Assembly: GCF_020405205.1 (NCBI RefSeq)
Contig: NZ_CP084469.1
Span: 3,844,001-3,908,000, forward strand
DNA length: 64,000 bases
From: Natrinema salinisoli
Lineage (GTDB): Archaea > Halobacteriota > Halobacteria > Halobacteriales > Natrialbaceae
Reading direction: 5' to 3'
Under the pieces are notes generated by a model. It made no database searches and had not been told where the DNA came from. It worked only from the letters and a program-made list of their open reading frames with translations. This document shows, piece after piece, positions 31,770 through 47,624 of the stretch (positions are counted from its first letter, which is position 1; every line of letters begins with the position of its first letter). Position numbers and translations under genes: made by a program.

Positions 31770-32336
31770 ATGATGGCTATTCCGCTCCCGACGATTCTCG
31801 TGGTAGAGGCACTGAACGGTCTGCTCGCTGCTCCCGGTGAAGCACTCGTCGAGTCCGCCACCGGCTGGGGCGGGATGGGGATCGTCTTCGTCTACTCGTT
31901 TCTGATCGCGTTCGCGCTGCCCGGTCCCAGCGAGGTCGTCCTGCTCGCGCCGCTCGATCTCGGCTTTCCGCAGTGGCTCCGCCTCACGATAATCATGCTC
32001 GTCAGCGCGACCGGCAAGGCGGCCGGCAGCGTGGTCGCGTTTCACCTCGGGCAGGAAGTCAAACAGTCCGGACCGATAACGCGGTGGTTGCGTCGGTCCA
32101 GATGGGACATCCTCGCCTGGTCGGAGAAGCGCTCGGTCCAGCTCGCGCGGCGGTACGGGTACGGCGGGCTCGCGATCGCCCTCTCCGTTCCGTTCTTCCC
32201 CGACACGATCTCGATATACGCCTTCGCCGTCCTCGAGGAAGATTACCCGCGATTCGCCCTGGCCACGTTCCTCGGGAGCCTCGGCCGGCTCGTCGTGACG
32301 GTGGGGTTCTTCGGTGGCCTCGCGACGGTATTTTGA
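31770..32336 (+). CDS. VTT/DedA-like membrane protein
   Basis: 188 residues with the VTT (SNARE-associated Golgi) pattern: FVYSFLIAFALPGPSEVVLLAPLDLG (re-entrant half-loop), SATGKAAGSVVAFHLGQEVK, RYGYGGLAIALSVPFFPDTI and FALATFLGSLGRLVVTVGFF. DedA-family proteins flip undecaprenyl phosphate or phospholipids. The closing RLVVT motif with its conserved Arg is present. It lies 95 bases after GtrA, same strand, and belongs to the same surface or lipid-carrier cluster by position. Confidence 0.85.
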   Translation: MMAIPLPTILVVEALNGLLAAPGEALVESATGWGGMGIVFVYSFLIAFALPGPSEVVLLAPLDLGFPQWLRLTIIMLVSATGKAAGSVVAFHLGQEVKQSGPITRWLRRSRWDILAWSEKRSVQLARRYGYGGLAIALSVPFFPDTISIYAFAVLEEDYPRFALATFLGSLGRLVVTVGFFGGLATVF

Positions 32337-32420
32337 TCGGATCGTTCGGTTCAATTACGACTGCTTTCGCGCGAATCGGACGATCACCACAGTTTACCCG
32401 TTCGCGACTGAGCAGATGGT

Positions 32421-45974: not shown

Positions 45975-46763
45975 ATGAGCGATCACCAGTTCACCCCCGA
46001 GACGTACACCGGAATGCCCGAGGGAACGGCCGTCTCGCCGCCCCAGCTGATCAAGAACGCGCGCATGCTCATCGTCGGCTACGAGGCCGATCCCGACGTG
46101 CTCGCGGACGCACTGCCGCCCGGGCTCGAGCCCCACCCGAACACCCTCGTCCAGCTGAACACGTATCGGGTGCCGTCGGCCGAGCGAACGAGTCACCTCG
46201 AGCCGTACACGCTCACCTACCTGACAGTGGAAGTCGCGGACCACGACAGCCGCGCGATCAGCACTGCTCAAGGCGAGATGCCCGTTCCCGGCCGCTTCTG
46301 GGTCGGCTACTGGACCGATTCCCCGCAGATGCGAACGTTCACCCGCGAGGCCGGCGGGATCCCGAGTCTCGCCGGGTCGTGTGAGTGGGACGAAGCCGGC
46401 GGACAATTGATCTCGACGCTCTCGGTCGACGGTGACCCGGTTCTCGAGGCCGAAGCGACCGTCGGTGACCAGCAAATCGACACGCTCACCGGCCACCTCA
46501 ACTATTATGCGCACCGCCAGTTCCCGGATCCTGCGGGGGGCCGAGCGCAGGTCAGCGAACTCCTCGAGTTCCCGATCCCCTTCGTCAGCGAGCTGTACGA
46601 GGCCGAGGTCGATCGCATCGACTTCGAGTTCCCCGAGGAGTCGCCGTTCCAGCGCTTCGCCCCGGTCGAACCGCTTTCGACGCCGTCGGTTCTCCACGGG
46701 ACGGTCACGTTCACGTACCCGCAGGGGCGCCGGATCCGGGACTACCTCGCTGCGGACTCGTAA
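45975..46763 (+). CDS. acetoacetate-decarboxylase-family protein, catalytic Lys replaced
   Basis: 262 residues. ADC fold signs: PPQLIKNARMLIVGYEADPDVL, ALPPGLEPHPNTLVQL, YTLTYLTVEV and FYYAHRQF-like NYYAHRQFPDPAGG. In true ADC the Schiff-base lysine lies in G-R-E-x-G-x-P-K; the matching stretch here is REAGGIPSLAG with Ser131, so decarboxylation by imine is unlikely. Starts 13 bases after the SCP2-hydrolase gene and is probably co-expressed with it. Related ADC-like proteins act on other carbonyl compounds. Confidence 0.85.
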   Translation: MSDHQFTPETYTGMPEGTAVSPPQLIKNARMLIVGYEADPDVLADALPPGLEPHPNTLVQLNTYRVPSAERTSHLEPYTLTYLTVEVADHDSRAISTAQGEMPVPGRFWVGYWTDSPQMRTFTREAGGIPSLAGSCEWDEAGGQLISTLSVDGDPVLEAEATVGDQQIDTLTGHLNYYAHRQFPDPAGGRAQVSELLEFPIPFVSELYEAEVDRIDFEFPEESPFQRFAPVEPLSTPSVLHGTVTFTYPQGRRIRDYLAADS

Positions 46764-46896
46764 GACGCCTCTCTCACTCCTTTCGTGGCCTCATTGGACG
46801 GACAGGGCTGCAGCTGCTATCGAGACGTGCCTCGGAAGTGTCCGAGAAGGAGAGTTGCTATGGCCAGCGCTCTCGAGTTAGTTTACACCAGAACAA

Positions 46897-46916
46897 AGCG
46901 GGAGGTAGATTTGAAC
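46897..46916. repeat. direct copy of the 3' end of tRNA-iMet
   Basis: AGCGGGAGGTAGATTTGAAC, identical to 47038-47057 inside the tRNA gene; the match goes on for three more bases with one mismatch. The copies are 141 bases apart. Partial tRNA copies of this type are left by integrases that use tRNA 3' ends as attachment sites. Confidence 0.75.
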
Positions 46917-46964
46917 CACGCCGTCACCCTCACTACGTTCGGGTGCCGTCTGGTTCAAATCTAC
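46905..46964. repeat. 60-base hairpin with tRNA T-arm sequences as stem
   Basis: GTAGATTTGAACCA at 46905-46918 and TGGTTCAAATCTAC at 46951-46964 are a perfect 14-base inverted repeat; inside the loop CACCC/GGGTG pair again. Both arms carry the T-loop consensus GGTTCAAATC, one on each strand. Confidence 0.72.
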
Positions 46965-46973
46965 TCGACACTA

Positions 46974-47035
46974 TTTTCAGGGATTCAGCACTCACTCCTC
47001 GCCATGCCCGTCGTTCGTCGTTGAATCCCTGAAAA
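46974..47035. repeat. 62-base hairpin beside tRNA-iMet
   Basis: TTTTCAGGGATTCA at 46974-46987 pairs perfectly with TGAATCCCTGAAAA at 47022-47035; outer bases CTA/TAG extend the match. It lies at the immediate 3' side of the tRNA gene, so it may be a terminator or an end of a lost element. Confidence 0.72.
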
Positions 47036-47036
47036 G

Positions 47037-47111
47037 TAGCGGGAGGTAGATTTGAACTACCGATCTGCGGGTTATGAGCCCGCCGGAATCTCCTGGCTAT
47101 CCCATCCCGCT
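47037..47111 (-). tRNA. initiator tRNA-Met (CAU)
   Basis: Minus-strand cloverleaf. Acceptor AGCGGGA pairs with TCCCGCT, so the first pair is A1-U72, the archaeal/eukaryal initiator mark. Anticodon stem GCGGG / CCCGC around CTCATAA holds the three consecutive G:C pairs that define initiators; anticodon CAU. T arm is GGTAGTTCAAATCTACC. CCA is not encoded. 75 bases, no intron seen. Confidence 0.93.
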
Positions 47112-47171
47112 ATCACTTCATACCCGAGTGCCCTAGTTAAGGGTTGTGATTCGGTAGCCGTATGCGGGTTT

Positions 47172-47624
47172 CTACCGCTGGTCCTGATACACCTGCCAGG
47201 TGTAAAGGCACTCACAGATGTAGTTGACGAAGAACCCGGCTCCGATACCGATCACGTTCGCCAGCATGAGTCCGACGCCGAAGTGCCCGGTCAGCACCAT
47301 TAATACTACCAGCGTCACCAGCAACCCGCCGAAGCGGACCACGTTCGAGAGCATGAATCGGCGCCACAGCGCTCGCAGTCCGCCCTCGCCGTAGCTCGCG
47401 AACGTCCACTGTTCGTTGATCACGAAGATGACTGCAATACCGAGCTCCCAGGAGAGGAGCTTTGAGACGACCGTTCCGAGGGACATAGCCTCGACCAGGA
47501 ATACGAGCGCAGCAGTGTCGATGGCCGCACCGAAGGTCCCGACCCCGACGTACAGTCCGACCCGCGTCGTCGAGCACAGCGCACGAACCCGCGTTCGGAT
47601 CGTCTCTGGGAGGGAGTTACTCAT
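47172..47624 (-). CDS. GtrA family membrane protein
   Basis: 150 residues with four TM segments: RVGLYVGVGTFGAAIDTAAL, SWELGIAVIFVINEQWTF (N-E-Q-W-T-F motif), RFGGLLVTLVVLMVLTGHFG and LANVIGIGAGFFVNYICECL. A second GtrA, only distantly like the one at 31247. It stands alone beside tRNA-iMet and could be cargo of a past integration, or simply a neighbour. Its likely job is membrane transfer of lipid-linked sugars. Confidence 0.88.
   Translation of the reverse strand: MSNSLPETIRTRVRALCSTTRVGLYVGVGTFGAAIDTAALVFLVEAMSLGTVVSKLLSWELGIAVIFVINEQWTFASYGEGGLRALWRRFMLSNVVRFGGLLVTLVVLMVLTGHFGVGLMLANVIGIGAGFFVNYICECLYTWQVYQDQR

Follow-up and report, generated by a model that had tools for sequence, protein, structure and literature searches.

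Several archaeal integrases are described in a review (PMC8371274) as using tRNA loops; the same review gives SNJ2 an attachment site of 13-14 bp and confines SNJ2-type integrases to Halobacteria. SNJ2 itself is described as integrating into tRNA-Met of Natrinema sp. J7-1 (PMC5867852). In the window analysed here, a 64,000-nucleotide stretch of the Natrinema salinisoli genome, the gene for initiator-type tRNA-Met(cat) is followed by a unit of about 141 bp that consists, in minus-strand order, of a left hairpin (L), an inverted T-arm copy (INV), a right hairpin (R) and a direct copy of the tRNA end (Table 1). Units of this kind were found behind many isoacceptors across Halobacteriales. We propose that they form a family of non-coding, non-autonomous tRNA-targeted cassettes (about 70-165 bp) that are added by T-arm recombination, a proposal to which we give an even chance of being correct.

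The duplicated target of tRNA-Met(cat) extends from the T-loop, at its TTC, as far as the discriminator base. It lies within a direct repeat of 23 nt (46897-46919 and 47038-47060; 96% identity, spacing 141) with an exact core of 20 nt, which bears out an earlier note on this DNA that had described a 20-base exact copy of the tRNA 3' end 141 bases away. Both hairpins of that description were recovered as well: the one whose arms are T-arm sequences in opposite directions corresponds to inverted T-arm copies on both sides of a hairpin at about 46905-46964, and the one beside the tRNA, with its perfect 14-base stem, is formed by the pairing of 46974-46987 with 47022-47035. L opens with a T-rich tract immediately 3' of the tRNA, and the last base of the direct copy is degraded at this locus (T for A). 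Folded as a single strand, the 140 nt from 46897 to 47036 are far more stable than expected (z = -6.5 as RNA and -6.6 as DNA), with none of 200 shuffled sequences equally stable.

Table 1. Features of the initiator tRNA locus and its downstream units (window positions)
Feature	Positions	Strand	Remarks
tRNA-Met(cat), initiator type	47036..47111	-	tRNA; duplicated target is the last 20 nt, 47037-47056
Left hairpin L of proximal unit, type A	46965..47036	-	begins CTTTTCAGGGATTCA; 14-bp perfect stem
INV, inverted T-loop/T-stem copy (GTAGATTTGAA)	46954..46964	-	tRNA-specificity checked separately
Right hairpin R	46916..46953	-	GTGG end immediately precedes direct copy
Direct copy of tRNA 3' end (TTCAAATCTACCTCCCGCT)	46896..46915	-	distal end of proximal unit
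Decayed left hairpin of older distal unit	46857..46895	-	resembles TATGTTTTGGCGCGAAC type of relatives; assigned by comparison with L006 and L023

At other loci, too, the duplicated segment has these same limits, and the preceding GTGG is part of the unit, not of the tRNA. Among 232 distinct tRNA loci, a pooled and biased sample in which many loci were fetched with motif or unit-bearing queries, the tRNA's own tail recurs within 600 nt downstream in 104; in 887 trials the tails of other tRNAs never did so, and the reversed tail did so at 2 of the 232 loci. When R hairpins behind tRNAs were defined by motif alone (n = 56), the next sequence was the acceptor end of the same tRNA in 53 cases and a foreign one in none, with three unclear. 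In most cases INV follows the T-loop variant of its tRNA (58 matched cases for AAATC and 4 for GAATC, and 3 crossed ones; an exact INV core was lacking in 33, and a few had altered copies). INV agrees with the T-stem of the same tRNA at 2.39 of its 4 further bases, as compared with 1.67 after permutation (38 non-Met units; 0 of 5000 permutations), and this match declines with distance from the loop. If cassettes moved between tRNAs, foreign INV and acceptor sequences would be expected, yet both are specific to their own tRNA, which implies that INV is formed anew at the target or that cassette lineages are bound to particular tRNAs.

The earlier note had suggested looking for the hairpin pair elsewhere in the genome, and the same architecture was indeed present behind 14 of the 46 tRNA genes, counted as a downstream copy of the gene's own last 20 nt with at most 4 mismatches within 1.45 kb and with one tandem whole-tRNA duplication excluded. 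Beyond the 46-gene list, a unit was seen at one tRNA-Pro, and tRNA-Leu(tag) also has units, displaced by 25.6 kb. ARAGORN additionally calls a tRNA-Arg at 32274-32370 of the window that is missing from the genome's Rfam tRNA list and is probably a false positive. In G258, a distant haloarchaeon from another family of the order, copies occur behind 13 of the 30 tRNAs examined (of 43), including one tRNA-Gly with up to five perfect copies. A loose hairpin motif was found in 320 of 392 genomes of the order, with the reversed control absent among the matches listed. The strict motif (NNAG plus GTGG) was found in 63 of 81 genomes of the order and in 0 of 311 other genomes of the phylum (63 of 392 in the phylum as a whole). 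A scan of named-species genomes yielded at least 80 loci; the matches listed comprise 78 haloarchaeal names, one 'Euryarchaeota archaeon' and one Campylobacterales MAG, the last a truncated and apparently unrelated match at bases 1-50 of a contig with 29% GC. Judged from these sequence searches, the motif family appears to be specific to Halobacteriales. When one locus was taken from each of 29 genomes, the hairpin followed a tRNA at a distance of 33-234 nt in 26 of them, and its orientation was fixed. Individual R families are shared by several isotypes (11 for R1, 6 for R3). A common loop motif in L across tRNAs was considered and dropped, as it occurs in 13 of 81 units and in 9 of 110 unit-less flanks. 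The 20-nt core itself is present in 121 of 125 genomes of the family; among the matches listed, its copies are often spaced by about 80-155 bp and in a few cases by 570-650 bp, and the longer islands bounded by the same 20-mer that the earlier note envisaged did not appear there as any kilobase-scale pair.

Units differ between close relatives. At the initiator locus, nearly every species of the genus has units, and their type, number and order vary. The window genome (G000) and its sister G019 share L and the downstream sequence and differ in R (L005 versus L006), and in a further relative (L013) R is inverted relative to that of the window, with 36 of 38 matches in the inverted orientation and 15 in the direct one. 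A second, separate initiator locus, on other contigs or in other regions, carries the same unit types. There is also a third class of initiator tRNA genes (T-stem CTACTTCCCGC; L044-L049, L051, L052, L054), located on other contigs or near contig ends, with no units in the loci read. Behind tRNA-Thr(cgt), G000 has a 102-bp unit that is absent from G019, where the following sequence abuts the tRNA; skipping this unit restores the alignment, and the distal unit is common to both. G019 could have lost the unit by deletion between 20-nt repeats instead of G000 having gained it. G023 possesses homologues of both G000 units at this tRNA and one extra proximal unit, and behind tRNA-Arg(tct) the order of units differs across species. 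A rarer 5' counterpart (L323, which is the tRNA-Thr(cgt) locus of G000, L280 and L113) lies directly upstream of the tRNA, where a hairpin of the GAGACGGAC..GTCCGTCGATG type comes after a copy of the tRNA 5' end; in G000 it amounts to an extra 58 bp that the sister G019 lacks.

Decay within arrays is polar. Among 32 loci with at least two copies, the first copy is better preserved in 17, worse in 5 and tied in 10, a modest difference (sign test, p = 0.017) at loci that are phylogenetically non-independent. Some arrays consist of identical units (L295, with four units of 111 bp, and L397), so that tandem amplification also operates, and plain tandem duplication explains these runs.

Under the proposed mechanism, a cassette would be added directly behind a tRNA gene through recombination within the T-arm, leaving the tRNA whole and placing a second copy of its end, from T-loop to discriminator, beyond the cassette. 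Successive additions would build arrays in which the newest unit adjoins the tRNA, unequal recombination between the 20-nt repeats would expand or delete units, and the inner hairpin R would be swapped or inverted between the inverted T-arm boxes. The enzyme would be a recombinase specific to the T-arm, for which a tyrosine recombinase acting in trans is the most likely candidate. The other possibility raised in the earlier note, that of a small non-autonomous element whose att sites form a folded structure, fitted best what was found, namely whole-unit presence and absence, tandem units and target-derived duplication. The sequences directly show the anatomy, the duplication of the own tRNA, the presence or absence of whole units, the exchange and inversion of R and the decay with distance from the tRNA; from these we infer that gain is an active insertion carried out by such a recombinase. 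A trans-acting site-specific recombinase is our preferred explanation, held with evenly balanced confidence, over template switching, a role at the RNA level and classical scars. More tentatively, the units might be an order-wide, gene-independent cassette system that uses tRNA ends as CRISPR arrays use their first repeat: a hairpin cassette would be inserted behind the tRNA, the tRNA's own end duplicated and the inverted T-arm copy formed anew on the target, with the result that many tRNA genes would bear arrays that are polar and exchangeable. We regard this wider picture as possible, although not probable.

That the units are scars of deleted ordinary integrase-borne proviruses or plasmids, the minimal scar of the earlier note, seems very improbable to us. 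It is true that, according to PMC3119063, elements of haloarchaea target the 3' ends of tRNAs and leave partial copies behind, and the units are flanked by a tRNA end and a partial tRNA copy, as in an attL/attR scar. The window genome moreover has, 3.2 kb behind tRNA-Thr(tgt), an R hairpin with a degraded end of that tRNA (G000:C1:346305-349506, L289), and acquired-looking genes lie in the interval; a full integrase element in this segment was considered and rejected, as no integrase was recognized by eye among its ORFs. Against this stands a 25.6-kb integrated element in tRNA-Leu(tag) (G000:C1 about 1605453-1631120; L303, L304), which carries two integrase genes, the first of them 47% identical to the integrase of halovirus HSTV-2. 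It repeats about 45 nt of the tRNA, its ends lack L, INV and R, and it stands between the tRNA and two older units. HSTV-2 likewise carries this long stretch of tRNA, close to its integrase gene and without INV or R, so that neither this one intact-looking element nor the viral tRNA piece shares its ends with the units. Since the ends are different, a classical scar is an unlikely source, and random deletions are unlikely to have produced one compact anatomy at scores of loci. Among 20 regions around integrase genes of the genus, two neighbouring ones having been merged, the tRNA-Leu element alone stood beside a tRNA that has a distant copy. One locus (L313) has a short unit at tRNA-His.

An enzyme-free origin, in which the units are made by template switching or gene conversion while DNA is replicated or repaired, is in our view unlikely, although the best of the rival explanations. 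The nascent strand would leave the tRNA end, copy L-INV-R of another array and re-enter at the universal TTCAAATC box of the recipient, whose own end would thereby be duplicated. Such a path accounts for the start of the copy at the universal T-loop box and the invariable use of the recipient's own end, for R modules being common to several isotypes, unlike the L motif tested, and for mosaicism together with runs of identical units; but the first switch would occur without obvious homology, the restriction to one order and the fixed orientation suggest a lineage-specific factor, and no direct trace of the process was seen. Less plausible still, and improbable overall, is a reading in which selection maintains the units as RNA structures that serve tRNA transcription units as terminator, trailer or processing signal, the duplications being by-products. 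Their strong folding, the T-rich tract directly behind the tRNA and the pairing of INV with the copy, which is maintained with T-loop variants in most cases, would all suit an RNA role. A terminator or processing element would, however, be generally present behind tRNA genes in stable number, whereas 32 of the 46 tRNAs in the same genome lack such a copy, the number, type and order of units shift between congeners, and distal units decay. Nor does any Rfam family except tRNA reach the gathering score over 46700-47300. The earlier note had named a conserved terminator at other tRNA genes as one finding that would undo its reading; hairpins do occur at other tRNAs, but their copy number and sequence vary strongly, which a plain conserved terminator would not explain.

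For the recombinase that we prefer, no autonomous partner and no recombinase gene linked to the units emerged in this analysis. Most of 13 genomes scanned (G012, G006, G025, G001, G002, G013, G014, G017, G008 and G023) encode a tyrosine recombinase whose open frame spans about 443-453 aa, with no convincing tRNA beside it in the five regions read (L310, L315, L319, L321, L322); this protein is a possible helper. SNJ2-type integrases are also candidate helpers because their range, as stated in the review cited above, is the same as that of the units. BLAST with the unit against phage records gave no haloviral match, and the strict motif had no occurrence in viral contigs; matches of the loose pattern in viral contigs were mostly AT-rich and due to chance. 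Among plasmid records, matches of a tRNA-containing query were tRNA copies, and R-hairpin queries mainly matched the palindromic centre, which was set aside as a generic haloarchaeal palindrome. This 22-nt palindrome, identical to the central part of certain R hairpins, is located immediately downstream of a gene that encodes an RPA-like OB-fold domain (L300-L302, about 2500-2600) in three haloarchaeal plasmids read closely, and the same 22 nt match many other plasmids.

No published description of the cassettes was found in open-licence full texts, which is weak evidence of absence given that subscription journals lay mostly outside this scope; within that literature, the addition process appears to be one that has not been described. 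If our reading is correct, a widespread protein-free mobile or recombining family is tied to essential tRNA genes across an archaeal order, and it would explain many 'partial tRNA' copies without proviruses, so that a short tRNA-end duplicate in haloarchaea would not by itself be evidence of a provirus. It would also imply an unrecognized T-arm-specific recombination activity and offer a readable polar record of insertion in a genetically tractable group.

Compared with known systems, the units resemble tRNA-targeted tyrosine-recombinase elements of the HSTV-2, SNJ2 and pT26-2 types in that the 3' part of a tRNA is targeted, the tRNA is restored and a direct repeat is left. They differ in being gene-free and 70-165 bp long, in a duplication that starts from the T-loop, and in their paired hairpins, inverted T-arm, many isoacceptors and tandem arrays. 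With the MITE, SMR and PATE elements of Haloquadratum, as portrayed in PMC3119063, they share small size, lack of proteins and richness in hairpins in haloarchaeal genomes; those elements, unlike the units, have terminal inverted repeats or near-terminal palindromes, and SMR-A, by the same account, makes no target duplication and takes PATEs and IS605-type elements, rather than tRNA ends, as insertion sites. The units appear to have neither transposon-shared terminal inverted repeats nor insertion sites in mobile elements: L and INV-R-copy form two separate hairpins, which at 26 of 29 loci lie behind a tRNA. Integron attC cassettes have a folded recombination site with mismatched stems and are arranged in tandem. 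The units are alike in these respects, with no attC core motif recognized in them. In casposons and in the growth of CRISPR arrays, the target next to the leader is duplicated and growth is polar. The units likewise duplicate their own target, and their polarity (17 against 5, with 10 ties, at non-independent loci) may be of the same kind, but what would be inserted is a recurring hairpin family instead of new spacers.
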